From the NCBI GenBank assembly GCA_944342025.1, contig CALVMD010000004.1, positions 69,201-133,200 of the forward strand: 64,000 nt of DNA, given 5' to 3'. The notes below the pieces were generated by a model. That model was not told the origin of the DNA and did no database searches. It saw nothing but the letters and a program-made list of their open reading frames with translations. How positions within the stretch are numbered: position 1 is the first letter of the stretch; each line of letters starts with the position of its first letter. Of the stretch, positions 6,624 through 19,706 are shown one piece after another. Source of the DNA: an uncultured Clostridia bacterium (GTDB lineage: Bacteria; Bacillota; Clostridia; Christensenellales; Borkfalkiaceae). Position numbers and translations under genes: made by a program.

Positions 6624-8357
6624 ATGGTACATCTGAAAATAAACAATATTCCCGTAGAGGTCAAAGAGGGGAGCACCATTTTGGAAGCGGCAAAGGTCGC
6701 CGGCATCAACATTCCCACCCTCTGCTATCTGAAAGAGATCAACGAGATCGGCGCGTGCCGCATCTGCGTGTGCGAAGTGAAGGGCGCAAGGAGCCTCGTT
6801 GCCGCGTGCGTATATCCCGTTAACGAGGGGATGGAAGTTTTCACCAATACCGAAAAGGTGAGAAAGTCCAGGAAAACGACGCTCGAATTGCTTCTTTCCG
6901 ACCATAAAAAGGAATGCCTTTCCTGCGTCCGCTCAACGAACTGCGAATTGCAGAAACTTTCCAACGAATACGGCTGCGACGAAAACCGCTTCAAGGGGGC
7001 AAGGTCCGAATACGAAGAGGATCATTCGACGAGCTATCTCGTCCGCGACAACGAGAAATGCATCCTCTGCCGCAGGTGTGTGGCAGTCTGCAAAAAGGTG
7101 CAGGAAGTGGCGGTTATCGCGCCTTCCCGCCGCGGTTTCAACACGCATATCGCCTGCGCTTTCGAATCCGATCTCAACGACGCGCCCTGCGTGGCGTGCG
7201 GCCAGTGCGTGGCGGTCTGCCCGACGGGCGCGCTCCGCGAGCGCGAGGAGATCGACAACGTCCGCGAGGCCATCAACGATCCCGAAAAGGTCGTCGTCGT
7301 GGCGGCGGCTCCCGCCGTGCGCGCGGCCATCGGCGAGGAATTCGGCTATCCCATCGGCACCAATACCGAGGGTAAAATGTTCACCGCCATGCGCATGCTC
7401 GGTTTCGACAAGGTGTTCGACGTGAACTTCGGGGCCGACCTCACCATCATGGAAGAGGCGAACGAGCTTTTGCACCGCGTGAAAGAGGGCGGCACGCTCC
7501 CCATGTTTACGAGCTGTTCTCCCGGCTGGATCCGCTTTGTGGAGTATTATTATCCCGAACTCATCCCGAACCTTTCTTCCTGCAAGTCGCCCATGCAGAT
7601 GTTCGGCGCGACGGTCAAGACCTATTGGGCGCAGAAAGAGGGGATCGATCCGAAAAATATCTATGTCGTCGGCGTCATGCCCTGTACGGCGAAAAAATTT
7701 GAAAAGACGCGCGATAACGAAAACGCGAGCGGCTATCCCGATATAGACGCCGTGCTGACGACGCGCGAACTTGCCAAGATGATCAAAAATTCGGGCATAC
7801 TGTATAACGAGCTCCCCGACGGCACGTTCGACAACCCGCTCGGCGAATTTACGGGCGCGGGCGTCATCTTCGGCGCGACGGGCGGCGTTATGGAAGCGGC
7901 GCTCCGCACCGCGGCGGAAGAACTCACGGGCAAACCGCTCGACAGCGTCGATTTCAAACAGGTTCGCGGCGTCAAGGGCATCAAAGAGGCGGAGTACGAC
8001 CTGAACGGCACAAAGGTGAAAGTCGCCGTCGCGTCGGGGCTTACCAATGCGAAGGAGCTTTGCGAAAAGATCAAAAAGGGCGAGTGCGACTATACATTTG
8101 TCGAGGTCATGTGCTGCCCGGGCGGCTGCGTCAACGGCGGCGGCCAGCCTATCCAGAGCGCATACACCCGCAGGCAGGTAGACCTGCGTTCCAAGCGCGC
8201 CAAGGCGCTGTACGACGAGGACAAAAAGGCGACCGTCCGCAAGAGCCATGAAAATCCCGCCATTCAGCAGCTTTATAAAGATTTCTTCGGCGAGCCGGGT
8301 TCGCATAAAGCGCACGAGATTCTGCACACCTCGTACGTCGACAGGAAACATAAATAA
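6624..8357 (+). CDS. hndD: [FeFe]-hydrogenase catalytic subunit (HndD/HydA, group A3-like)
   Basis: Catalyses reversible H2 formation. The 577 residues contain an N-terminal [2Fe-2S] domain (CYLKEINEIGACRICVC), a His-ligated [4Fe-4S] motif (HKKECLSCVRSTNC), a two-[4Fe-4S] domain (CILCRRCVAVC, CVACGQCVAVC), and the H-cluster with TSCSPGW near residue 297, MPCTAKKFE near 352 and CCPGGCVNGGGQP near 495. The small-subunit-like tail QLYKDFFGEP ends the protein. The second L1 position is Ser rather than the Cys of many clostridial hydrogenases. Maturation genes hydEFG are not in the window. The gene ends the operon before a hairpin terminator. Confidence 0.96.
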   Translation: MVHLKINNIPVEVKEGSTILEAAKVAGINIPTLCYLKEINEIGACRICVCEVKGARSLVAACVYPVNEGMEVFTNTEKVRKSRKTTLELLLSDHKKECLSCVRSTNCELQKLSNEYGCDENRFKGARSEYEEDHSTSYLVRDNEKCILCRRCVAVCKKVQEVAVIAPSRRGFNTHIACAFESDLNDAPCVACGQCVAVCPTGALREREEIDNVREAINDPEKVVVVAAAPAVRAAIGEEFGYPIGTNTEGKMFTAMRMLGFDKVFDVNFGADLTIMEEANELLHRVKEGGTLPMFTSCSPGWIRFVEYYYPELIPNLSSCKSPMQMFGATVKTYWAQKEGIDPKNIYVVGVMPCTAKKFEKTRDNENASGYPDIDAVLTTRELAKMIKNSGILYNELPDGTFDNPLGEFTGAGVIFGATGGVMEAALRTAAEELTGKPLDSVDFKQVRGVKGIKEAEYDLNGTKVKVAVASGLTNAKELCEKIKKGECDYTFVEVMCCPGGCVNGGGQPIQSAYTRRQVDLRSKRAKALYDEDKKATVRKSHENPAIQQLYKDFFGEPGSHKAHEILHTSYVDRKHK

Positions 8358-8368
8358 TCGCTCGGAGT

Positions 8369-8412
8369 TTGCGGGGGAGGGTGTATGCTTTTCCCCGCAA
8401 CTTTTCATTTTT
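8369..8412 (+). terminator. Terminator of the hydrogenase operon
   Basis: TTGCGGGG (8369-8376) pairs with CCCCGCAA (8393-8400), followed by CTTTTCATTTTT. The 16-base loop is long but the T-rich tail is good. Confidence 0.6.
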
Positions 8413-8424
8413 GGGGAGAATATC

Positions 8425-8451
8425 ATGTGTGGTCATATCATCATTTTTTAA
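8425..8451 (+). CDS. Possible 8-codon leader ORF
   Basis: ATG at 8425 is preceded by GGGGAG at ideal spacing and encodes MCGHIIIF before TAA. Its stop overlaps the AGGA sequence before the lipoprotein gene at 8470. It may be a coupling leader peptide or chance. Confidence 0.2.
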   Translation: MCGHIIIF

Positions 8452-8469
8452 GGAAAAAGTAAGAAAGAA

Positions 8470-9696
8470 ATGAAAAAGATTTTATCTTTGATGTTGGCCG
8501 CTGTCTGCTGTTTTAGTCTTGGTGCCTGTTCGGGAGGAGGGGGACAAACGCCGCCGGACATCGGAGAGGAAGAACAGCCCTCCGGCCCGATCGAATTGAC
8601 TTCGGTATATCAGGGAGCGGAGATCGATCTGTGCGACCCGTCCCTTCGGGAATATCTTGAAGAAGAGGATTTCGATGCGCAGTGTGCCTTCCTTCTCGAA
8701 CACGAAGGGGAGATCTACGACTATCAGAATATTTCCTTCTCCTGGGAAGGAGACGGCAGCTCGAATTACCGCGTATATTTTGCGGATAACGCCGCGTTCG
8801 AGGACGCGCTCGTTGTCGAAACGTCCGAGTGCAGCCTGTCGGGCGGGCTGTTCATGCCGGGCGAAACGTATTACTGGAAGGTGATCGGCGACGATGCGGA
8901 GAGCGAGTCGGAAACGGATTTTTTCCGCGTTTTGGACGAACCCGTGCGATTTTTGGACATTACGGGAGCGAACAACGTGCGCGATGCAGGCGGCTGGACG
9001 ACGGAGAGCGGGCAGCGCGTGCGATGGGGCATGCTGTACCGCGGCAGTCAGCTGAACGGATATATGGGTACGCCTATGCCTGAAGAGGGTATCGAGCAGA
9101 TGCGCGACGTTCTCGGCATTAAGAGCGAGATCGACCTGCGCATTCCGGATGTGGACGACGCGGGGCAGATGCAGAACTACCTCGACCCCGAAGCGCCGTA
9201 TCTGAAAGCGACGATCCACCCTTATACCACGCTGATCGAAGATTTTGATCCGAGCGACGAAAAGCATAGCTACTACGAAGAGAGCGCGGAGGCGATCCGC
9301 AGTATTTTTGCTTTGTTGAGCGACGAATCCAATTATCCCGTCTATTATCACTGCAATTCGGGCGCGGACAGGGCGGGTTCGCTCACCTACCTTCTCAACG
9401 GGCTGCTCGGCGTGTCGTACGAAGATCTGACGAGGGATTTCGAGATCACCTCTTTCAGCGTCATGGGAAACCGCTGGCGCGGCAGCGCGGAGAGCGGGTT
9501 TACCGACGGTATCATGAGCGACGGCACGAGCGGCTTTACCTACGTCGCCTGGGGAAAGATGCACGAACTGTTCATGAAGTATTATGCCACCGAAAGCGGG
9601 CTTTTGTCCGACGCAATCGAAAATTATCTTCTGACCGTCTGCGACGTTCCCGCCGAGCACATTCAAAAATTCCGCGAGATCATGCTGGTCGGGTGA
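8470..9696 (+). CDS. Secreted lipoprotein with tyrosine-phosphatase (C-X5-R) domain
   Basis: Predicted surface lipoprotein of 408 residues. The signal peptide ends in a lipobox LGAC with the lipidated Cys at residue 20, followed by a Gly/Pro/Glu-rich linker. Residues about 75-155 look like a beta-sandwich of the fibronectin III kind (YRVYFADN, ETYYWKV). From about 160 a tyrosine/serine phosphatase domain follows: NNVRDAGGW and RGSQLNG are typical early motifs of this family, and HCNSGADRAGS (His 294, Cys 295, Arg 301) is the catalytic P-loop. Substrate is unknown; secreted members act on phosphoproteins, phosphoinositides or inositol phosphates. It is flanked by terminator-like hairpins, so it is probably monocistronic. 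Confidence 0.85.
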   Translation: MKKILSLMLAAVCCFSLGACSGGGGQTPPDIGEEEQPSGPIELTSVYQGAEIDLCDPSLREYLEEEDFDAQCAFLLEHEGEIYDYQNISFSWEGDGSSNYRVYFADNAAFEDALVVETSECSLSGGLFMPGETYYWKVIGDDAESESETDFFRVLDEPVRFLDITGANNVRDAGGWTTESGQRVRWGMLYRGSQLNGYMGTPMPEEGIEQMRDVLGIKSEIDLRIPDVDDAGQMQNYLDPEAPYLKATIHPYTTLIEDFDPSDEKHSYYEESAEAIRSIFALLSDESNYPVYYHCNSGADRAGSLTYLLNGLLGVSYEDLTRDFEITSFSVMGNRWRGSAESGFTDGIMSDGTSGFTYVAWGKMHELFMKYYATESGLLSDAIENYLLTVCDVPAEHIQKFREIMLVG

Positions 9697-9725
9697 ATTT
9701 CGGCTGTCGATTGACAGCCGAAATT
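9696..9725 (+). repeat. 13-bp inverted repeat overlapping a stop codon and a -35 box
   Basis: AATTTCGGCTGTC (9696-9708) pairs perfectly with 9713-9725 around GATT. There is no T run, so it is a weak terminator candidate. Its right arm contains the TTGACA box of the next promoter. Confidence 0.6.
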
Positions 9726-9739
9726 CCGTATGTTATAAT
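9711..9739 (+). promoter_or_regulatory. Perfect consensus promoter of the glycosyltransferase-kdsB-aldolase cassette
   Basis: TTGACA (9711-9716), 17 bases, TATAAT (9734-9739), with an extended TGT before the -10. Confidence 0.85.
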
Positions 9740-9760
9740 GGATTGCAAAGGGACGCCCCT

Positions 9761-9783
9761 TTTTGGTTGCATGGCAACCAAAA
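9761..9783 (+). other. Perfect hairpin in the 5' leader
   Basis: TTTTGGTTGC (9761-9770) and GCAACCAAAA (9774-9783) form a 10-bp stem with a 3-base loop, about 15 bases into the predicted transcript and 38 bases before the start codon. Confidence 0.5.
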
Positions 9784-9821
9784 GATTCTTTATCGGTGCA
9801 GAAAAATCATAGAGGAAAAAA

Positions 9822-11297
9822 ATGATCGTATACCATATAGGACATTTCGGCGCGCTGAGCAAGGCGCTCTTGATCCATTTAACGCTCCACAGAAATGAAA
9901 AATGCGCTATTTTGATTGATACCTTGCTTTGTAATCATGAAACAAAGAATTTCATCGGCGGGTTTACGGAAAGGGCGGCGCGGTTTGCGACGATCATCCC
10001 GTACAGCGACGACGAGTTTAAGGACGAAACGGGACTTGAAAGCATTAAAACGCACGTGCAGAACTTTTTTTCCCGGATATTGCAGGAACACGGCGTTGAC
10101 CTGAAACAGGCCGAAAAGGTCTATACGATGTTTGATACGTTCAATGCGTTCGGCGCTTATGCTCTGATGGAACATATCCCGCTGACCTTTGTCGATGCGT
10201 TCGGCGTATTGGCGAAAGACAGGTACAGGCCGCGCGGCCCGCAGTGGACTTATTACGACGAATTGCTGGAAGAGGTCGGCGCATTGGGATATGGCTGCAA
10301 AAATGAAAATTGTTCTTTTTTGTATCGCGACAGCGTGGCCGAAGGGATTGGAGAGGGAAAGATTGATTTCGAAACGCTGCGCATGCGGCTGGACGGCGAG
10401 GCGATCGGCGTTTTGCTCGATCTTTACGGTTTTAATCCGGAGGGGAACGGGGAATTGTGCAATCTGCTCGTCTTTTCTTCGGGCTGGATCATGGCGAACA
10501 AAAAGATAGATAAACAGGGATATTTCTATTATTACCGCCTCGCGCTCGATTTTTTTGCGCAGTCCGGGCATAAAGTTCTCTTAAAGCCGCACCCCAATAC
10601 GGGGATAACGCAGGCAGAGGCTGAAAAATACTTCGGCGACGCGCTCGTGATCCCCAGTTATTTTCCTTCCGAATTTATTCCGTTTCTGAAAGGGGTTCAG
10701 GTCGATCAGGTGATCGCCACATCCCTGTCGGGTGTTCCGACCGGAATTTATGGCTGCAAGTATTTTACCGCATTTGAAATTTTCACCGAAGAGAAGATAT
10801 TTAAACGATTGTATTTTGCCTTGCAGGTGGAAAAATTTTTGCAGCCGCAGTATAAAAAGTTTTATCACCAAGGGTTGCACAACCGGTTTGCCTGGGCTAT
10901 GCAGGACGGGATTTTTTCGAAATTCCGCCTGCACTCTGTGTGGTCGCCCCTTCGGGAATTCGAGCAAGACAGCGTCACGATCATAGACAATTATTTGTGG
11001 AACGGACCGTCGGACAGGGAAAAACTGATCGCCGCGCTGAAAAAGATCGACAACAATGCCGTCGTGATTTTTTTAGACGCGAAAGATAAAGGGAACTATC
11101 TTTTTGACGAATATAAAGAGGGCGCTGTATTGATCAAAACACTGTATTTTGCTGAGCAGCCTTGCGGCGAACAGGGGGAAAAGCGGATCGAAAAAATACA
11201 TGTCTTTTGCAAAGATCCGTCGGTATTCGAGCGGCTGCGCGATTTCCGTTATCGGGAATATATGCAGTATACCCAAAAGGTCTATTATTCCTATTGA
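9822..11297 (+). CDS. Putative sialyl-/Kdo-type glycosyltransferase
   Basis: A 491-residue cytoplasmic protein with no clear membrane segment. LLKPHPNTG near residue 253 is the hydrophobic-Lys-Pro-His-Pro motif found in GT52 and polysialyltransferase-like GT-B enzymes that use CMP-activated sugars; the N-terminus (HIGHFGALSKALLIHL) and the LVFSSGW segment fit a two-Rossmann fold. I do not recognise the exact family. The next gene encodes a KdsB-like CMP-sugar synthetase, which agrees with a CMP-sugar donor. AGAGGAAAAAAATG gives a good start. Base composition is more AT-rich than the flanking housekeeping genes, suggesting transfer. A CDP-glycerol-type transferase is the main alternative. Confidence 0.6.
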   Translation: MIVYHIGHFGALSKALLIHLTLHRNEKCAILIDTLLCNHETKNFIGGFTERAARFATIIPYSDDEFKDETGLESIKTHVQNFFSRILQEHGVDLKQAEKVYTMFDTFNAFGAYALMEHIPLTFVDAFGVLAKDRYRPRGPQWTYYDELLEEVGALGYGCKNENCSFLYRDSVAEGIGEGKIDFETLRMRLDGEAIGVLLDLYGFNPEGNGELCNLLVFSSGWIMANKKIDKQGYFYYYRLALDFFAQSGHKVLLKPHPNTGITQAEAEKYFGDALVIPSYFPSEFIPFLKGVQVDQVIATSLSGVPTGIYGCKYFTAFEIFTEEKIFKRLYFALQVEKFLQPQYKKFYHQGLHNRFAWAMQDGIFSKFRLHSVWSPLREFEQDSVTIIDNYLWNGPSDREKLIAALKKIDNNAVVIFLDAKDKGNYLFDEYKEGAVLIKTLYFAEQPCGEQGEKRIEKIHVFCKDPSVFERLRDFRYREYMQYTQKVYYSY

Positions 11298-11352
11298 GCG
11301 GATGAGTGATCGCATATCGTATAGTGTTATCAAAAAGAGAGGAAGAATAAAG

Positions 11353-12102
11353 ATGAAAATGATCGGCGTGATACCGGCAAGATACCAATCCAGCCGTTTT
11401 CCCGGAAAGCCGCTCGCGGATATCTGCGGAAAGCCCATGATCTGGTGGGTGTACAACCAAACGCGCAAAGTGAAAGAATTGTCGGAAACGCTCGTGGCGA
11501 CGGACGATAAAAGGATCTCCGATGTATGCGATCGTTTGGGCATTCCGTATGTCATGACATCGGAAAAGCACAGAAACCATGTAGAGAGGCTGTACGAAGT
11601 TTCGGAAAAGGTTGCGGCGGACCTGTATGTCTGCGTCTGCGGCGACGAGCCGCTGATCCTTCCCGAAACGATCGAAAAAGTCATCCCTTCCGATCGGATC
11701 GACCAAAGTCGCTGTTTTGCGTGCAGCGTGCAGAGGCCGTTCACCAATCCTGCGGAAGTGATCGACATCAATACGATCAAATTGGTCACCGACGTGAACG
11801 GCGTCAGCCTGTATATGTCGCGCATTCCGATCCCTTATCCCAACAAATCTTTGGATTTCCCCTATATGGAAAAAGTAGGGGTGGAATCGTACAATAAAAA
11901 GGCGCTGGATTTTTTCTACCATACGTCTCCGGGATTTTTGGAAAAGACGGAGGACATCGTGTTGCTCCGATTTGTCGAGAACAACGTCCCCGTGCATTAC
12001 CGCACCGACGATCATTATACGTTGTCCGTCGATACGCCGAAAGATCTCGAAGTCGTAAAAAAGATCATCGAGAGCGATCCCGAACGGGACAAAAGAGGAT
12101 AA
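11353..12102 (+). CDS. kdsB: KdsB-like CMP-ulosonic acid synthetase
   Basis: Transfers CMP from CTP to an acidic keto-sugar. The 249-residue length equals KdsB, and MKMIGVIPARYQSSRFPGKP is the nucleotide-binding signature of 3-deoxy-manno-octulosonate cytidylyltransferase; ICGKPMIWWVY, VATDD, CGDEPLI and VDTPKDLE follow in family order. The start at 11353 has AGAGGAAG upstream; the reading frame extends further back but that part overlaps the preceding gene. The aldolase gene starts 3 bases after its stop. No kdsA, kdsD or neuB is visible, so the substrate may be Kdo made elsewhere or a different keto acid made by the neighbouring aldolase. Confidence 0.85.
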   Translation: MKMIGVIPARYQSSRFPGKPLADICGKPMIWWVYNQTRKVKELSETLVATDDKRISDVCDRLGIPYVMTSEKHRNHVERLYEVSEKVAADLYVCVCGDEPLILPETIEKVIPSDRIDQSRCFACSVQRPFTNPAEVIDINTIKLVTDVNGVSLYMSRIPIPYPNKSLDFPYMEKVGVESYNKKALDFFYHTSPGFLEKTEDIVLLRFVENNVPVHYRTDDHYTLSVDTPKDLEVVKKIIESDPERDKRG

Positions 12103-12105
12103 TTT

Positions 12106-13695
12106 ATGAAACAGATCGGTCTTTTAGACTGTACGCTGCGGGACGGCGGTTATGTCAACGATTGGAATTTCGGGCACAGCGTGATAACGGGAACGTATAA
12201 GCGGTTAGAGGCGTCGGGCGTGGAGTATATCGAGGTCGGATTCCTCGACGACAGGCAGCCGTTCGATATCAACAGGACGATCGCCCCGAATACGCAGTCG
12301 TTTGACGAGATTTTCAAAAACGTGAAAAAAGGCCGCGCCGTCCCCGTGGCGATGATCGATTTCGGCACGTGTGCGCTGGAAAACATCGGCCCCGCCGACC
12401 AATCGTTCATCGAAGGGATCCGCGTTATATTTAAAAAAGAGAAGATCGGGCAGGCTCTGCCCTTTTGCAGGGCCGTCAAAGAAAAGGGGTACAAACTCTT
12501 TATTCAGGCGATTTCCATCACGGCATACAGTGATATGGAGATGCTCGAATATATTCAAAAAATCAACGAGATCAAGCAGTATGCCTTTTCCATCGTCGAC
12601 ACGTACGGACTTTTGGACAACAGAAAGATCGCGCACTATTTCGACCTTTTCGACAACAACCTCGATCCGGAGATCCGCGTCGGATACCATGCGCACAACA
12701 ATTTTCAGCTCGCGTTCAGCAATACGGTCAAATTTTTCAATCTGTATACGAAGCGCGCGCTGATCGCCGACTGCACGGTGTACGGCATGGGCAAGAGCGC
12801 GGGAAATTGCCCGAGCGAACTGATCGCCATGCACCTCAACGAGACGTACGGCACCAAATACGATCTTTCGCAGTTTCTGGAAATCCTGGATGCCGATCTG
12901 TTGTCCGTCTACCAGCGCCATTACTGGGGATATAAGTATAATTTTTATATATCCGCAATGCAGAACTGTCATCCCAATTATGTGCAGTATTTGTTGGACA
13001 AAAAGACGCTTACGGTAAGCGCGGTCAATAAAATTCTGGAAAGCATCCCGCAGGAGCGCAAGCTCTCTTACGACGCGGCTTATATCGAGAAAGCTTATCT
13101 GGATTATCAGAACAACGTGATCGACGATGCACAGGTGATCAAAAAACTTGCCCGGAAATTCGAAGGGAAGAGGGTGCTCCTGCTCGGTCCGGGGGCGAGT
13201 ATTCGGGAGAAAAAGAGCGAGATCCTCGCTTATGCCGGGGCAAAAGACGTTTTGACGGTATCCGTCAATTTTTATCCGAAAGATTATGCCTGCGGGCTGG
13301 TCTTTATCAGCAACGCAAAGCGTTACAGCCGTTTTGCCGATACGCTGGAAGACGGCATGGCGGCGGAACTTGCGGTCACCTCGAATGTAGAGGCGTTCGA
13401 CCGCCGCCCCGATTACGTGGTGAATTACGAGTCCCTCAGCAGCTCTTTGCCGCATAATTCGGATAACGCGCTCTTGCTGTGTATGATGTTTCTCGTGCGC
13501 ACGGGGGTCAAAAAGGTCATGCTGGCGGGGTTCGACGGGTACTTGCCCGGAAAGGAAGATTATTACCAAAGCAGTTATTCTTTCGCCGGGAACGAGGCGT
13601 ATAAATTGGAGATGAACGGCATCGTGCGGGAGGGGCTGCAATACCTGAAAGAGAAGATCTCCTTCGAATTTGTCACGCCCTCTCTGTACGAATAA
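12106..13695 (+). CDS. Pyruvate aldolase (HMGL/DmpG-like) fused to a DUF115-like domain
   Basis: A 529-residue two-domain protein. Residues 1 to about 300 form an HMGL-type TIM barrel: DCTLRDGGYVNDWNF carries the metal-binding Asp and catalytic Arg, HAHNNFQLA the His-x-His metal ligands, and GMGKSAGNCPSEL the conserved exit loop; this resembles 4-hydroxy-2-oxovalerate aldolases, which add pyruvate to aldehydes. From about 345 a Rossmann-like domain (GKRVLLLGPGASIREK) resembles DUF115/MptE-like domains seen in nonulosonate transferases and pyrophosphokinases. It lies 3 bases after the kdsB-like gene. Inference: it makes a 4-hydroxy-2-keto acid sugar for CMP activation. Confidence 0.75.
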   Translation: MKQIGLLDCTLRDGGYVNDWNFGHSVITGTYKRLEASGVEYIEVGFLDDRQPFDINRTIAPNTQSFDEIFKNVKKGRAVPVAMIDFGTCALENIGPADQSFIEGIRVIFKKEKIGQALPFCRAVKEKGYKLFIQAISITAYSDMEMLEYIQKINEIKQYAFSIVDTYGLLDNRKIAHYFDLFDNNLDPEIRVGYHAHNNFQLAFSNTVKFFNLYTKRALIADCTVYGMGKSAGNCPSELIAMHLNETYGTKYDLSQFLEILDADLLSVYQRHYWGYKYNFYISAMQNCHPNYVQYLLDKKTLTVSAVNKILESIPQERKLSYDAAYIEKAYLDYQNNVIDDAQVIKKLARKFEGKRVLLLGPGASIREKKSEILAYAGAKDVLTVSVNFYPKDYACGLVFISNAKRYSRFADTLEDGMAAELAVTSNVEAFDRRPDYVVNYESLSSSLPHNSDNALLLCMMFLVRTGVKKVMLAGFDGYLPGKEDYYQSSYSFAGNEAYKLEMNGIVREGLQYLKEKISFEFVTPSLYE

Positions 13696-13725
13696 AGAAA
13701 AGTTTTTGATTTTCAATTATGGAAC

Positions 13726-13765
13726 GAAGGCGCCCGCAGCTGCGGGCGCCTTCGGCTTGCATAAA
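13726..13765 (+). terminator. Probable terminator of the surface-sugar cassette
   Basis: Bases 13726-13753 are a perfect 28-nt palindrome (GAAGGCGCCCGCAG and complement). There is no immediate T run, so termination may depend on other factors. Confidence 0.45.
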
Positions 13766-13912
13766 AGGGCGGGTTTTTGCGCAAAATTTTGGTATGAAAA
13801 AAAGAGTGGGCGCGCACGACCCCGAGGGGGTCAGGACGCGCGACGAGCGCGAGACGTTCGTCAAAACGTTTTCGGCATCGCAGGAGCGGAACGAAAGGGG
13901 CGGAGACTGAAT

Positions 13913-14362
13913 ATGCAGCAGGGGAAAGTCAATCAGAATTATCTCGACTATGTGCGTTCGTTCGCCGCGCCGACCAAGCATTTCCACAATTGCCTGCGCG
14001 CTTTTACGGTGGGCGGCGGCATCTGCTGCGTCGGGCAGTTTATCCGCATCATGCTGGAAAATTGGGCGCACCTTTCGGGCGACGAGCTTGCGGGCACCGT
14101 TTCGGCCGTGCTCATCTTTTTGGGGTGTCTCCTTACGGGCCTGGGGGTATACGACCGCATCGGCAAAGCGGCGGGGGCGGGCTCTATCGTGCCTATAACG
14201 GGGTTTGCCAACAGCGTCGCCTCGCCCGCGCTCGAATTTAAAGCGGAAGGGTTGATCACGGGCCTTGCTTCAAAAATGTTCGTCGTCGCGGGGCCGATCA
14301 TCGTGTACGGGGCCCTGGGCGGCGCCGCGGTGGGACTGATCTATTATCTGTTGCGCCTTTGA
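13913..14362 (+). CDS. spoVAC: Stage V sporulation protein AC
   Basis: Inner-membrane channel protein that moves dipicolinic acid during spore formation and germination. The 149-residue length matches SpoVAC (about 150). KVNQNYLDYVRSFAAPTKHF near the start and ITGFANSVASPALEFKAEG are strong family signatures, and four hydrophobic segments are visible (about 32-52, 65-83, 90-110, 125-147). GGGGCGGAG lies 8 bases before the ATG. It is alone: spoVAD and spoVAE, which normally follow in clostridia, are absent here and a terminator follows directly. This implies a sporulating ancestor at least; a lone copy may be a paralogue. Confidence 0.92.
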   Translation: MQQGKVNQNYLDYVRSFAAPTKHFHNCLRAFTVGGGICCVGQFIRIMLENWAHLSGDELAGTVSAVLIFLGCLLTGLGVYDRIGKAAGAGSIVPITGFANSVASPALEFKAEGLITGLASKMFVVAGPIIVYGALGGAAVGLIYYLLRL

Positions 14363-14400
14363 TTGTGCCGGGTAAAGTGACGAAACAATTTCTATGAGAG

Positions 14401-14444
14401 TCCCGCCCGCAAGGCTTTTGCTTGCGGGCGGGATTCGTTTGTTT
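14401..14444 (+). terminator. Terminator of spoVAC
   Basis: A 13-bp GC-rich stem (14401-14413 with 14421-14433) followed by TTCGTTTGTTT. Confidence 0.75.
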
Positions 14445-14456
14445 AAGGCAACCGCG

Positions 14457-14777
14457 CTAAGCGATCAGCGCGATGATCTGTTCGGCGATAAATACCGTTG
14501 CGATGCTTGCCACAGATACGACGAGAAGTCCGCGCTTGCAATAAGACAATACGAGCGCGACGGCTGTTCCCGCGATGCCCGACCAAAGGGACGCCGTGGA
14601 GAAGAGGATGCCGGGGAAGATCATGACCGCCAGCACGCTGTAAGGGATGTAATACAAAAAAGACTGTAAAAAACGGTTGCGGATCTGTTTTCTGACGAGC
14701 AGCAGCCCCACGCATTTGGTCGCGTAAGTCACTGCCGCCATGATGAGACAGCCGAAGAGCATATCGGATAAAGTCAT
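14457..14777 (-). CDS. azlD: Branched-chain amino acid exporter, small subunit AzlD
   Basis: A 106-residue membrane protein with about four hydrophobic helices, starting MTLSDMLFGCLIMAAVTYAT and containing the family-typical RNRFLQSFLYYIPYSVLAVM. It is the small partner of AzlC and together they export branched-chain amino acids or their analogues. The start is set by ATGA overlap with the azlC stop and by GGAGGCGGCGA upstream; the longer open frame back to 15122 is antisense-like noise through azlC. Confidence 0.9.
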   Translation of the reverse strand: MTLSDMLFGCLIMAAVTYATKCVGLLLVRKQIRNRFLQSFLYYIPYSVLAVMIFPGILFSTASLWSGIAGTAVALVLSYCKRGLLVVSVASIATVFIAEQIIALIA

Positions 14778-15508
14778 TCGCCGCCTCCCTGTCCGCCCGT
14801 TTCGTCCGCCTGTTCCTGCGCGATCTCTTTCACGGGGAAGAGAAGCGCGACGGCGGTCGTGCAGACGACGGCGCAGATGATGATGACCCAGCCCTGCGAA
14901 AGTTCTTTGAGTACGGGCGTGAAGTAGAACAGACAGCTGGCCGCCGTGGAGAGCGCGACGAGCAGAAATACCCGCGCATCCTCGCGCGAGGCGGGGATGA
15001 TGATGGCGACGAACATGGCAAACAGAGCGATGTTCAGCGCGCTCATGACAAAGTCGGGCAGGATGTTTCCGAGCAGCGCCCCGAGCGCCGTTCCGCCCAG
15101 CCAGCCCGAAAAGGAACAGCACATCAGCCCCGCCATATAGGGGAAAGTGAGCTTCCGCGGCTGGCGGATGCAGACGGCGTAATTTTCATCGGTCACGCCG
15201 AAGGAAAGGAGCGCCCGCTGCCACAGGGGGAATCCGCCTCCCATTTTTTGTGAAAGGGACACGGACATCAGCGAATAGCGGATATTGATGATGAGCATGG
15301 TGACGAGCAGTTCTGCGACCCCGGCTCCCGCCGCGATGAGGTCTGTCCCCGCGACCTGTCCCGTGCCCGTAAAGTTGGTCAGGGATATGAGTACGGGGAA
15401 CCAGGGCGGGAAACCGTTTGCAAGTGCGGTGATCGCATAAGCAAACGAGACGGGGAGATAGCCGAGCGCGATGGGCAGCCCGTCTTTTACGCCGCGCGAA
15501 AATTTCAT
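14774..15508 (-). CDS. azlC: Branched-chain amino acid exporter, large subunit AzlC
   Basis: A 244-residue permease with several membrane helices. FSRGVKDGLPIALGYLPVSF at the start, the FTGTGQVAG segment and the helix around GVTDENYAV are AzlC signatures. The start at 15508 is preferred because AGAAGG lies 10 bases upstream; an in-frame ATG eleven codons earlier lacks this. It is translationally coupled to azlD and driven by a TATAAT promoter 40 bases upstream. The gene pair is transcribed against its neighbours, as an independent two-gene operon; no Lrp-type regulator gene (azlB) is nearby. Confidence 0.92.
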   Translation of the reverse strand: MKFSRGVKDGLPIALGYLPVSFAYAITALANGFPPWFPVLISLTNFTGTGQVAGTDLIAAGAGVAELLVTMLIINIRYSLMSVSLSQKMGGGFPLWQRALLSFGVTDENYAVCIRQPRKLTFPYMAGLMCCSFSGWLGGTALGALLGNILPDFVMSALNIALFAMFVAIIIPASREDARVFLLVALSTAASCLFYFTPVLKELSQGWVIIICAVVCTTAVALLFPVKEIAQEQADETGGQGGGE

Positions 15509-15546
15509 ATGCGTATTCCTTCTTTTGTTTGAAAAGTGCAAGCATG

Positions 15547-15575
15547 ATTATAGCACATGTGACGGCGTTTGTGAA
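15547..15575 (-). promoter_or_regulatory. Promoter of azlCD
   Basis: Minus strand TTCACA (15575-15570), 17 bases, TATAAT (15552-15547). Confidence 0.7.
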
Positions 15576-15636
15576 CGGAAAACGTGCCGAAACGGACAAA
15601 TCGGAACGAAAAAAACGCGCGGGTGCGGCTGTCGGC

Positions 15637-15665
15637 TTGCGTTCGCCCCCGCAATATGTTATAAT
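15637..15665 (+). promoter_or_regulatory. Promoter of class I lysyl-tRNA synthetase gene
   Basis: TTGCGT (15637-15642), 17 bases containing CCCCCGC and an extended TGT, then TATAAT (15660-15665). It shares its spacer pattern with promoters at 21474 and 23136. Confidence 0.75.
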
Positions 15666-15695
15666 AAGGCGAAATCAAGTGCCAGAGGTTGAAAT

Positions 15696-17726
15696 ATGTA
15701 TTGGGCTGATAAGTTGGCGGAAGAAGTCATCCGCCGCAAACCGGATAAGGAAGAATACGTCTGTGCGGCGGGTATTTCTCCGTCGGGATCCGTTCATATC
15801 GGCAATTTCCGCGACATCGCGACGAGTTGGTTCGTGTGCCGCGCACTGCAAAAGAAGGGCAAAAAGGCAAAATTACTCTTTTCGTGGGACGAGTACGACC
15901 GCCTGCGCAAAGTGCCGAAAAACGTCTCCGATCATCTCGGTAACAATTCTTACGAAAAATATATCGGTTATCCCTATGTCGACATTCCCGACCCGTTCGG
16001 TCAGGACGAGAGTTACGCCGCCCATTTTGAAAAAGAATTTATGGAGGAGGTCAAAAAGTTCGGCATCGAAATGGACTACCGCTACCAGGCGAAGGAGTAC
16101 CGCTCCGGCCGCTATGCCGAGCACGTGATTTTTGCCCTCAAAAACCGCAAAAAAATCTTCGATATTCTCGATAAGCACCGCACGCAGGACGCCACGGAGG
16201 AGGAGCGCGAAAACTACTACCCCGTGTCCATCTTCTGCCCGCACTGCCATAAAGATTCGACGAAAATCGTCTCCCTCTCCGACGACTGCACCAAGGCGCA
16301 TTACACCTGCGAGTGCGGGCATGAGGGCGACTTCGATTTTACCAAAGATTTCAACTGCAAATTGCAGTGGAAGGTCGACTGGCCTATGCGCTGGATGGTC
16401 GAAGGCGTCGATTTCGAGCCGGGCGGAAAGGACCACGCCTCCAAAAACGGCAGTTACGACACCGCGAAAGACATCTCCCGCGAGGTGTTCGGTTACGAGC
16501 CGCCGCTGTTCCAGGGTTACGAGTTCATCGGGATCAAGGGCAACGTGAGCGTCGGCAAAATGAGCGGCTCTTCGGGGCTGAACATGACGCCCGATTTCCT
16601 GCTCAAACTGTATCCGCCCGAGCTCATCCTGTGGCTGTACGCAAAGACGGAGCCTTTGAAGGCGTTCGACTTCTGTCTTTCGGACGAAATCCTGCGCCAG
16701 TACTTCGAGTTCGGCAAAATGCTGACAAGCTACATGAACGGCACCGCGGACGAAAACACTGCGCGCATCATGGAAAACAGCCTCATCGAGGGGCGCAAGT
16801 TCGTGCCCGTGCCGATGAGCCAGCTCGTCGATTTGGGGTCGGTGGTCGATTTCAACCCCGAAATGATGGAAAAGTTGTTCGAAAAGATCGGCACGCCGTA
16901 CAAAATCGAGGACTTTAAAGAGCTGTTCGAGCGCGCCAAATTCTGGCTGCGCACCTGCTCGCCCGAAAGCGAGTACGTCATCCTCGAAAAGCGCAACTGG
17001 CCGTATTGGCGCACCATGAACGACAAGGAGCGCGAGTGCGTCCGTCTTTTGAAGGAGTACATCGAAAAGGGCGGCTACACCCTCGATTCGCTGCAGGCGG
17101 AGCTGTACGCCATCCCCAAGCAGGTATATCCCGACATTGCAGAGGATAAAAACGCGCTTAAAGCTGTGCAGAGCAAGTTCTTTAAGGACGTGTACAACCT
17201 GACGCTTGCGCGCGACAAGGGGCCGAGGCTTTACCTGTACCTGTACGCCGTTGAGCCGTCGCGCTATCTCAAACTTCTCGATTTCTCTCTGCCCGAATCG
17301 GAAGACCCCGACGCAAAGGAGGAGGTCAAAGAGGAAGTCAAGGAGGAAAAGAGTGCACCCGTCGAGGATAAATACGTCCCCGAGGCTGCGCCCTTCAAGG
17401 AAGTGATCGAAATCGGCGATTTCGATCAGTGCGACATCCGCGTATGCAAAGTGCTTTCCGCAAAGCCCATGCGCAAGACGAATAAATTGATGAAAATCAC
17501 CTTGCACGACGGCGCGGGCGAGCGCGTCATCGTGTCGTCCATCGCCGACCAGTACGAGCCGGAACAGCTCGTCGGCAGGAAAATTATCGTGCTCGTCAAC
17601 TTAAAGCCGCATAAGTTCGGCAACGAGTATTCGAACGGCATGCTTTTGGCGTCGGGCAATACCGACGGCACCTGCCGCATCCTGTTCGCCGCCGACGACG
17701 CCGAAATCGGCTCGCTCGTGCACTGA
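15696..17726 (+). CDS. lysK: Class I lysyl-tRNA synthetase with C-terminal tRNA-binding domain
   Basis: Charges tRNA-Lys with lysine. The 676-residue protein has class I motifs: GISPSGSVHIGNFRD near residue 30 and SVGKMSGSSG near 287, and the class I LysRS insertion with Cys pairs (CPHCH, CECGH) that may bind zinc. The standard enzyme is about 520-540 residues; here an acidic Lys/Glu linker at about 540-565 leads to a Trbp111/EMAPII-like OB domain (IGDFDQCDIRVCKVLSAKP, NLKPHKFGNEYSNGM) as found at the end of MetRS. Class I LysRS is common in archaea and scattered in bacteria. AGAGG lies 6 bases before the ATG; no T-box leader is present. Confidence 0.93.
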   Translation: MYWADKLAEEVIRRKPDKEEYVCAAGISPSGSVHIGNFRDIATSWFVCRALQKKGKKAKLLFSWDEYDRLRKVPKNVSDHLGNNSYEKYIGYPYVDIPDPFGQDESYAAHFEKEFMEEVKKFGIEMDYRYQAKEYRSGRYAEHVIFALKNRKKIFDILDKHRTQDATEEERENYYPVSIFCPHCHKDSTKIVSLSDDCTKAHYTCECGHEGDFDFTKDFNCKLQWKVDWPMRWMVEGVDFEPGGKDHASKNGSYDTAKDISREVFGYEPPLFQGYEFIGIKGNVSVGKMSGSSGLNMTPDFLLKLYPPELILWLYAKTEPLKAFDFCLSDEILRQYFEFGKMLTSYMNGTADENTARIMENSLIEGRKFVPVPMSQLVDLGSVVDFNPEMMEKLFEKIGTPYKIEDFKELFERAKFWLRTCSPESEYVILEKRNWPYWRTMNDKERECVRLLKEYIEKGGYTLDSLQAELYAIPKQVYPDIAEDKNALKAVQSKFFKDVYNLTLARDKGPRLYLYLYAVEPSRYLKLLDFSLPESEDPDAKEEVKEEVKEEKSAPVEDKYVPEAAPFKEVIEIGDFDQCDIRVCKVLSAKPMRKTNKLMKITLHDGAGERVIVSSIADQYEPEQLVGRKIIVLVNLKPHKFGNEYSNGMLLASGNTDGTCRILFAADDAEIGSLVH

Positions 17727-17805: not shown

Positions 17806-19706
17806 ATGGGAGCAGATATAAGTATCAAAGTCACGGTTGGAATCGTGAGCCGCGGCAACGAGCCGTTTCTCGAAGAGTGCCTCCGCACGGTAGCATCGCA
17901 GAATTTGGACGGGCTGGAAGTCATCGTCGCGGATATCAGCGACGAAGGCGGCCGCCAAGAATTGTTCACGAACTGGCTCGGCAAAAGACAAAAGTGCCTG
18001 TACAGGCACTTGCCGCGGTGCGCGGCAGGTGCCTGTACAGGCACTTGCCGCGGTGCGCGGCAGGTGCGGCGAAAAACTATTTATTAGAAATCGCGGCGGG
18101 GGAATACGTCGCTTTCCTCGGCGAGGATATCTGCTATTTGCCGGGCGGGTTGGAAAAACTGTACACGCAGGCAAAGGAGAGCGGCGCGGATATGGTGATC
18201 GGCCGCGCGGCGGCGGGGAATTTCGGAGGAAAAGAGTATCCCGCGGCGTGGACGGTAGACGGTGCGCTCGTACCGCAGAAAGAGCCGTTTGCGGCGGAAG
18301 ACATTGGCGAGCGCGCGCTCCTTTTGTGTAAAGGTTGGTCGGGGGACAAGCTGTTCCGCACGGCGTATCTGCGGGAGAACGGCCTGCGGTTTTCGGAAGG
18401 AGCGTTTCCGTCGGCGGGCGTGGTATTCGGCGTACTCGCGGGAGGAAAAACAGCGGTGAGCCGGGAGGCGGTATTGAGAACGCAGGACGAGGATTGTATC
18501 AGATACCGCAAAAACCTGATGAAGAGCGCAACGGACGTATATCTGGCGATGCTCTCGGCGGAAGAAGTGCTGAAACGGAGCGGTAAGGCCGAGGCGCTGA
18601 AAAAATCGTTTCTCACATGGTGTATAGAATTTGCGGTATGGGCGTACCAAAAGAGCGGAGAGAAAAAGAGAGAAACGCGCGAAATCATCCGGGAAAAGAT
18701 AGAACCGTGGCTGAAAATCACGGAACACGGCGTGAGCGATTATCTGACGCGCAAGCGCTTTTTCAAATACTGCGAACTTTGCTCGGAGGACGACGAAAAA
18801 AAGGTCGCGCGGCGTTTCGTGGAATTTGATAAGGCAAAAAAGGTGATCTCGATTTGGGGCAGCTGTGTGTCGCGGGAATTTTTCAATGCAGATAAAGAAG
18901 CCTTTTGCGTAAATGGGTATGTGTTTCAATGCCCGATGAATATTTATTACGGATATCTGCCCGTAAATGAGCAGAAAATTCCGCTCGATGTGTTTGAAAA
19001 AAGTGCAGAATCTGCATTTTGGGAACGCAGCTGTTACATTGCATTTAATAAAATGCCCTTAGAGTACTTGAAAACGCATGCGAGCGATTATTTATTATTC
19101 GATATTGCAGATACACGGTTTAGACATTATTATGAATTGATAAGAAAGGACGGATTAAAGACCAGAATCAATTTAGATACGCATATGCAGAGTTGTTTTG
19201 AAGCGTGTGTAGAAAAAAACTATATTGAAAGGGAGAATCTAAACAGGCAGGAATGGTTTAAGAACGGACGGCATATAATCAGCAGCGATGAATGGGAGCA
19301 ATATATAGATCTGTTCCTTTCGGATATTTTACGATACTGGCCCATGCGGAAAATGGTTTTGGTAGAAGCGAAGTTTCTAAAAATTTATGAAGAAAACGGG
19401 CAAAAGAAATCATTCTCCGATTCTTTTGCGTCAGCGCAGACTTTGGCTTGTGAATTAGAAAAAAAGCTCCGCGAAAAATTAAAAGGAGTAGCATTTCTTG
19501 CAATGCCGCAGAATGCTTACGGATTCAAAAACGATAAAGTCAATGCTCATCCGTTACATTATTGCAAGACAGTAAACGAATACAAAATGCAGGCGCTCAA
19601 AAAGATCGTCTATGAGCATGCGAGCAACGAAGAGATCCGGAGACTTTGCGACGAGTACGACAAAAAATTGCAGGAAGAGCTGGCGCTTCTTGCGCCCGCA
19701 GATTAA
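17806..19706 (+). pseudogene. Glycosyltransferase family 2 / DUF6270 fusion, frameshifted by a 35-bp tandem duplication
   Basis: From 17806 (AAGGAG 5 bases upstream) the frame encodes a GT2 start (KVTVGIVSRGNEPFLEECLR, GLEVIVADISDEGG) but stops at 18087. The rest, in another frame from about 18064 to 19706, continues GT2 (AAKNYLLEIAAGEYVAFLGED) and ends in a DUF6270 domain from about 18835 (ISIWGSCVSREFF), an SGNH-hydrolase-like fold. A 35-bp unit at 17994-18028 is repeated exactly at 18029-18063; removing one copy restores a single frame of about 620 residues. It may be a true pseudogene, a phase-variable gene or an assembly error. The DUF6270 half is clearly AT-richer than its surroundings, suggesting transfer. 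Confidence 0.8.
17994..18067 (+). repeat. Two exact 35-bp tandem repeats with internal palindromes
   Basis: Units at 17994-18028 and 18029-18063 are identical, and the first four bases recur at 18064-18067. Each unit contains the 16-nt perfect palindrome GTGCCTGTACAGGCAC and a TGCCGCG/CGCGGCA hairpin. Unit length is not a multiple of three, so copy number sets the reading frame. Confidence 0.95.

Follow-up and report, generated by a model that had tools for sequence, protein, structure and literature searches.

The pathway to 3-deoxy-D-manno-oct-2-ulosonate (Kdo) follows a simple logic in which KdsA supplies a ulosonate phosphate, the HAD phosphatase KdsC removes the phosphate, and KdsB transfers cytidine monophosphate (CMP) to the sugar. 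To our knowledge, all well-known CMP-activated sugars stem from phosphoenolpyruvate (PEP)-dependent synthases of the KdsA/NeuB type. Here we describe a three-gene cassette in a 64,000-nucleotide stretch of an uncultured Clostridia bacterium (contig CALVMD010000004.1, positions 69,201 to 133,200; hereafter the window), taken from a 1.57 Mb metagenome-assembled genome (MAG) that is 77.9% complete. The predicted steps of the cassette match the Kdo logic, including its capsule version with KpsU, and a KdsB-family synthetase is present. Unlike the Kdo pathway, the cassette carries a pyruvate-aldolase fold rather than a PEP synthase, its genome yielded no KdsA, and its KdsB falls in a separate clade that lacks a sugar-contacting glutamine.

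Three other groups of described systems are also related. The NeuB/NeuA, PseI/PseF and LegI/LegF systems share CMP activation with the cassette, and PseF-like synthetases replace KdsB in some of its relatives, at 46-76 bits against a PseF cut-off of 205.7 and hence only weakly PseF-like; however, no NeuB-family gene was found in the window's genome or in the six relatives searched. DmpG, BphI, MhpE and PDB entry 3dxi (the N-terminal domain of BVU_2661, whose entry title gives no function) share the aldolase fold and its RD and HxH pattern. Unlike DmpG, BphI and MhpE, the cassette enzyme has an extra C-terminal domain and glycan-type neighbours and scores far under the cut-offs; moreover, the three aldolases used as references adjoin an acetaldehyde dehydrogenase, and none was noticed beside the fusion. 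The erwiniose, caryophyllose and yersiniose pathways (ErwE, MMAR_2332, YerE) make branched sugars; in clusters of that type the same aldolase family often lies beside thiamine diphosphate (ThDP) enzymes and/or RfbH, frequently with SDR and RfbF-like genes, whereas the window cassette has a CMP-sugar synthetase and neither a ThDP nor an RfbH neighbour.

All three cassette genes lie on the forward strand. The first (9822..11297) encodes a 491-residue glycosyltransferase-like protein with a KPHP motif, the second (11353..12102) a 249-residue KdsB-like cytidylyltransferase, and the third (12106..13695) is an open reading frame for a 529-residue fusion of a pyruvate-aldolase domain of the HMGL/DmpG fold (residues 1-339, 12106..13122, boundary approximate) with a C-terminal domain (residues 340-529, 13123..13695). 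The intergenic gaps are 55 and 3 nt, both approximate because gene starts were taken from the longest or the first non-overlapping reading frame; the start at 11353, after AGAGGAAG, was our choice, and an in-frame ATG also occurs at 11302. We consider it reasonably probable that these genes encode a surface-glycan route that runs parallel to the Kdo pathway and begins with a pyruvate aldolase. In this scheme the HMGL-fold domain would add pyruvate to an aldose phosphate, giving a phosphorylated 3-deoxy-2-ulosonate; a HAD phosphatase, whose gene is adjacent in many relatives and is presumably elsewhere in the window's genome, would free the ulosonate; the divergent KdsB-like enzyme would couple it to CMP; and the KPHP glycosyltransferase would transfer the sugar to a surface polymer. 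The gene association, the fold, the conserved metal-site pattern, the separate KdsB clade and the distribution of kdsA are observed; the substrate, the direction of the reaction, the order of steps and any role of the C-terminal domain are what we infer. A preliminary description of this DNA had already proposed that an aldolase acts instead of KdsA or NeuB to yield a CMP-activated keto-acid sugar. That central proposal now appears well supported by comparative evidence, namely the pairing of the two genes, the separate KdsB clade, the absence or parallel presence of kdsA, and the placement of the aldolase outside the catabolic clade.

The pairing was examined in a contig scan covering the best 80 of at least 577 relatives, fused or not, chosen by similarity to the query, so that the fractions given here are not population frequencies. 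The scan and the loci of the family's genomes together gave 90 fusion-type proteins for clustering; removal of six short and three duplicate sequences left 81. Context was defined as within six genes on the same strand. Neighbour labels came from sequence clusters, with family models (HAD, ThDP, SDR, RfbH, AroB-like, PseF-like, SIS and rpe-like) applied to cluster representatives only; RfbF-like genes were recognised by eye. Fifty-one fusions lie near a ThDP enzyme and/or RfbH, 19 (at 18 loci, one of which, L098, holds two) near a CMP-sugar synthetase, and 11 near neither. Of the 19 fusions in the CMP group, 18 have the synthetase (KdsB-like or PseF-like) as the next gene upstream. The gaps run from -38 to 73 nt, and 8 of the 18 pairs overlap by the chosen starts. 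A HAD phosphatase, which the preliminary description had overlooked as a frequent third partner (it is absent beside the window's own cassette), follows immediately downstream in 10 of the 19. No gene of the ThDP or RfbH clusters was found within six genes, on the same strand, of the window's fusion or the other 18. On the fusion tree the CMP label requires 4 changes, against a shuffled mean of 17.2, and the window's fusion is one of five in a clade that is exclusively of the CMP type and includes Clostridia and Bacteroidales (SH-aLRT 100). Among 301 family genomes, full-length fusions occur in 11 and full-length KdsB-type matches (>130 bits) in four, the window's included. All four of these lie in a run with a fusion, three of them directly upstream, and in the fourth (G097) one PseF-like gene intervenes. 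The hypergeometric probability of this co-occurrence is 1e-6, or 2.7e-5 without the window, both made optimistic by shared ancestry. An extra KdsB found by profile in the genome of locus L123 likewise adjoins a fusion and a HAD gene. The gene association is real and is conserved across several phyla.

The fusion's N-terminal half matches PF00682 at 1.1e-19 and carries the DCTLRDGG and HAHNN motifs, as first described. Its predicted structure, a further check suggested at that time, has a mean predicted local distance difference test score (pLDDT) of 89.7 over residues 1-339 and adopts a DmpG-type aldolase fold, the best matches being 4jn6 (3.6e-14), 4lrt, 3dxi and 1nvm (E 3.6e-14 to 1.2e-13; TM 0.81 by target for 3dxi). 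Every one of the 48 aligned relatives keeps R12, D13, H195 and H197, the counterparts of DmpG's RD and HxH motifs, to which we ascribe metal and substrate roles. A catabolic 4-hydroxy-2-oxovalerate aldolase was rejected by cut-offs, neighbours and tree. The fusion scores 64.6 bits against a DmpG equivalog cut-off of 286 and 77.9 against 229 for a second catabolic-aldolase model, and grouping with the catabolic clade, which would have spoken against the original proposal, was rejected by an approximately unbiased (AU) test (p = 0.00027) in which the window's domain was constrained with MhpE and two DmpG sequences (30 rows, 3 catabolic).

The synthetase matches PF02348 at 1.5e-41, and the preliminary observation of the three genes is confirmed. 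The synthetase gene is the only CTP_transf_3 gene in the MAG (77.9% complete). It passes the broader subfamily model PRK05450.1-5 (221.8 vs 193) and falls under the TIGR00466 kdsB equivalog cut-off (133 vs 155.2 bits). In the 13 genomes with CMP-type loci, KdsBs linked to a fusion score 128-146 bits (10 matches, all <155.2) and canonical KdsBs 215-244 (8 matches). The tree repeats this division, with the linked proteins in one clade (94/90) and the canonical ones in another (99/98). QGDEP is present in all nine canonical KdsBs, among them the E. coli enzyme. The 14 distinct linked KdsBs of the window's clade all have C, N, G or M (Cys in the window) in place of the sugar-contacting Gln of this motif, and they keep GDEP and VDT; an HxCG[ST]DR-type motif is lost. 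PseF itself, we presume, also lacks this Gln, so that its loss is not diagnostic for the PseF-like partners. The Gln is described as forming a double hydrogen bond with the sugar in E. coli KdsB, and replacement of its NeuA counterpart by Ala as impairing kcat about fivefold with a 40-fold higher Km, and by Leu, Glu or Asn as impairing kcat 800-20,000-fold (PMC2901514).

Canonical Kdo genes were sought in all 13 genomes from which the CMP-type loci of the contig scan came. Eight carry both kdsB and kdsA over the cut-offs, the same eight for each gene; five carry neither, three of these matching the KdsA model at 101-121 bits vs 314. Of the eight, five (L058, L059, L083, L098, L123) hold a linked KdsB besides the canonical one, and in three (L077, L090, L107) the fusion's partner is PseF-like. 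Because canonical kdsA and kdsB are found as well in 8 of the 13 genomes that hold CMP-type fusions, the product of the cassette is probably not Kdo. In agreement with the first account, which had seen neither kdsA nor neuB, no KdsA (TIGR01362) exceeds its cut-off in any of the 301 family genomes, the window's 77.9% complete MAG included, and NeuB is likewise missing from that MAG; matches below the cut-off occur in 81 of the 301 at <=121 bits vs 314. A KdsA hidden in the MAG was also rejected, the sole DAHP_synth_1 match, next to a pheA-like gene, being a DAHP synthase of the AroFGH type; the six relatives searched have single DAHP_synth_1 loci as well.

The glycosyltransferase-like protein contains its KPHP motif and has no Pfam, NCBIfam or significant PDB profile match. 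Matches to it occur in 6 of the 301 family genomes, the window's included (G164 at 51% identity, G179 at 49%, the other three weak). A CTP_transf_3 gene lies directly downstream in five (G000, G141, G164, G179 and, at a contig end, G201) and in the same gene run in the sixth, G097. Since a CMP-sugar synthetase is thus near it in six of six genomes, the protein is a probable CMP-sugar transferase, a case of good guilt-by-association.

A similar gene trio also recurs outside the contig-scan sample, which we take as confirmation of the association. Fusion, KdsB and HAD genes, in this order and nearly touching, are found on three of three Leisingera plasmids (18 plasmid records had a match), and the three records annotate the trio's genes one by one only. 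The Leisingera fusion is 24% identical to the window's, and in the one that was read the C-terminal motifs are kept. The Leisingera KdsBs fall on the linked side of the tree.

Several observations weigh against a CMP-ulosonate route. Nine of the 19 CMP-context fusions lack a HAD gene directly downstream, and no HAD-cluster gene was found beside the window cassette. The fusion is commoner beside ThDP enzymes or RfbH (51 of 81) than beside a CMP-sugar synthetase (19 of 81). The residue aligned with His21 of DmpG, which we take to be catalytic, is Tyr in 44 and Phe in 4 of the 48 relatives, and this points to another mechanism or substrate; the loss of Gln in the window's clade could also mean a substrate other than a ulosonate. 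Two genomes (G164, G179) carry the glycosyltransferase and a synthetase with no match to the fusion, NeuB or KdsA, which counts against strict dependence on the fusion; in these (loci L143, 8427-10625, and L144, 8789-10935) the glycosyltransferase is followed directly by a PseF-like synthetase. Finally, the linked KdsB of Leisingera keeps the Gln (3 of 3), and the Leisingera aldolase domain is placed away from the remaining fusions, on the branch leading to the catabolic enzymes (91/82). Given this placement, the Leisingera trio may represent either a distant or a convergent form of the system. Since Leisingera retains the Gln, loss of this residue was rejected as a mark common to all linked synthetases; it characterises the window's clade, not the whole system.

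An alternative that we regard as unlikely is a variant Kdo pathway in which the aldolase replaces KdsA, joining pyruvate to arabinose 5-phosphate, and the CMP-Kdo formed by the KdsB-like protein serves a Gram-positive glycan. The membership of the synthetase in the KdsB family, with PRK05450.1-5 passed, agrees with this, as do the retained Gln of Leisingera, a KpsF/KdsD-like SIS gene near linked loci (short in L067, full-length in L107) and the closest PDB chain, 1gq9, described as the capsule enzyme K-CKS (PMC2901514). However, the tree places the linked KdsBs apart from the canonical clade, all 11 that were scored (the window's and 10 others) fall under the equivalog cut-off, neither the sugar-contact Gln nor the HxCG[ST]DR-type motif is kept, and linked KdsBs coexist with canonical kdsA and kdsB in five genomes. 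A KpsF/KdsD-like gene, moreover, was not seen beside the window cassette, although no genome-wide search was made. At L067 (5813-8368) and L107 (881-4908), nucleotidyltransferase-like and SIS genes lie upstream of a run of PseF-like synthetase, fusion and HAD genes, with a small HAD-like gene also upstream in L067; they are a possible clue to the aldehyde precursor.

It is quite unlikely, in our estimate, that the substrate of the KdsB-like enzyme is a non-ulosonate (a sugar phosphate, a phosphonate or another acid) and that the HMGL domain acts as a regulator or a Claisen-type synthase. The lost Gln at the sugar/metal site, the replaced His21 and the C-terminal domain, which has no significant fold match, would all fit, but aldolases are the closest characterised folds and profiles, synthases ranking lower, and the four motif residues are invariant in 48 of 48. 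The C-terminal domain is modelled as a confident separate unit (residues 340-529, pLDDT 91.5) and has no Foldseek match at E <= 0.001. The preliminary description had called it DUF115-like, for which support is weak: the Pfam MptE-like family (PF01973), which we take to be the former DUF115, gives 3 matches among 40 family members (E <= 1, best 1.4e-6), none of them to the window's copy. Weak PDB profile matches reach 0.025 (sialyltransferase 9c08) and 0.069 (pterin pyrophosphokinase 8sd5). A GT42 sialyltransferase or an MptE kinase as its identity thus has weak sequence matches and no significant fold match. The domain may be described as distantly MptE/DUF115-like and perhaps binds nucleotides.

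The most improbable alternative, that the fusion makes a hydroxy-2-keto acid for a ThDP carboligase in branched-sugar synthesis while the neighbouring KdsB is a bystander or makes a different nucleotide sugar, draws on the 51 of 81 fusions near ThDP enzymes and/or RfbH and on the use of 4-hydroxy-2-keto acids described for ErwE (PMC12247030), but no such gene lies within six genes, on the same strand, of any of the 19 CMP-type fusions, and there the synthetase gene overlaps the fusion gene or almost abuts it.

The ThDP/RfbH context itself, the commoner one, was missed in the preliminary description and bears on the product. Because 51 of 81 fusions lie beside ThDP carboligases and/or RfbH, the fusion is not specific to nonulosonate-type sugars. 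In this group HAD genes accompany 33 of 51 fusions and an AroB-like lyase 6, never together (chance 0.001, relatedness ignored), and neither occurs in 12. One AroB-like representative (L072) matches the 'sugar phosphate phospholyase (cyclizing)' model TIGR04425 at 457 bits vs 400. AroB acts on 3-deoxy-heptulosonate phosphate. As the HAD and AroB-like enzymes are both expected to act on phosphorylated sugars and never co-occur, the aldol product is probably a phosphorylated 3-deoxy-2-ulosonate. ErwE is described as coupling 4-hydroxy-2-keto acids to CDP-4-keto-3,6-dideoxyglucose (PMC12247030), and caryophyllose as carrying a hydroxylated C6 chain (PMC7821131). Such a chain would result from a C7 keto acid on loss of CO2, and our guess is therefore that the product is a 6- or 7-carbon acid. 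A broader and more tentative proposal, to which we give somewhat less than even weight, is that a widespread PEP-free HMGL-aldolase route leads to CMP-activated 3-deoxy-2-ulosonic acids, the product (probably C6 or C7, for example 3-deoxy-heptulosonate) having two fates: CMP activation by divergent KdsB/PseF-like enzymes, or ThDP-dependent decarboxylative transfer onto CDP-keto-dideoxyhexoses. The route would operate beside the Kdo pathway in Gram-negative relatives and alone in Gram-positive gut bacteria.

Other arrangements of these genes were also seen. The AroB-like gene stands with fusion and ThDP genes at L072 (12506-13570), with cluster members at L074, L088, L100, L131 and L135, and these loci may make carbocyclic branched sugars. 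On a Desulfobaculum plasmid (L190, 5846-10014), RfbH, a split transketolase and an unfused aldolase relative are clustered, which suggests another branched-sugar route. The window's own genome holds a second, unfused HMGL aldolase-like gene of 326 residues (L008, 5434-6414, contig C2) beside histidine-operon-like genes; similar matches occur in many family genomes and form a separate clade. Phages yielded two partial aldolase-domain matches only.

The cassette is preceded by a sigma-70-type promoter (TTGACA-17-TATAAT, with TG before the -10 box) at 9711..9739, whose 12/12 consensus bears out the earlier claim of three closely spaced genes behind one perfect promoter. A perfect 14-bp inverted repeat (9695..9726), either an upstream terminator or an operator, overlaps the -35 box, and a leader hairpin of 11 pairs with a 3-nt loop follows at 9760..9784 (z -2.39 for the 87-nt leader), all three on the forward strand. 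The consensus scan of 9600-14000 gave 8 promoter-like matches against 4.7 expected from shuffles; the other seven score 9, so only the 12/12 promoter stands out. Rfam gave no match in 8000-16000. The GC content of the three genes is 47.5-50.7% vs 54.4% for the window. In the same-genus genome G085, the left flank, promoter and hairpin are 82-85% identical up to ~9786 (85% for the promoter stretch). The similarity ends just past the hairpin, and in place of the cassette there is only a 184-residue piece, 32% like the fusion's C-terminal half. As flank, promoter, overlapping palindrome and hairpin are kept and the genes behind them differ, the site resembles a variable glycan slot served by a fixed promoter. 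A blastn comparison of the window's right flank (to 24 kb) with the fetched G085 stretch gave no match. Further downstream in the window (17806-19706) lies a family-2 glycosyltransferase/DUF6270 gene with two perfect copies of a 35-nt palindromic unit (17994-18063), which lie close to the point where the glycosyltransferase similarity switches reading frame, possibly a phase-variable or an assembly feature.

A search of the open-access literature, subscription papers and preprints lying outside it, found no paper describing an aldolase-KdsB pathway. If the proposed route is correct, a pyruvate aldolase would be a second way into the class of CMP-activated sugars, used both by Gram-positive gut bacteria that lack kdsA and by environmental Gram-negatives, and an undescribed sugar would be predicted. 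It would also assign a probable role to a large aldolase family that is so far uncharacterised (at least 577 matching stretches, fused or not), in which a single keto-acid-making module would link the CMP-ulosonates and the long-branched sugars.

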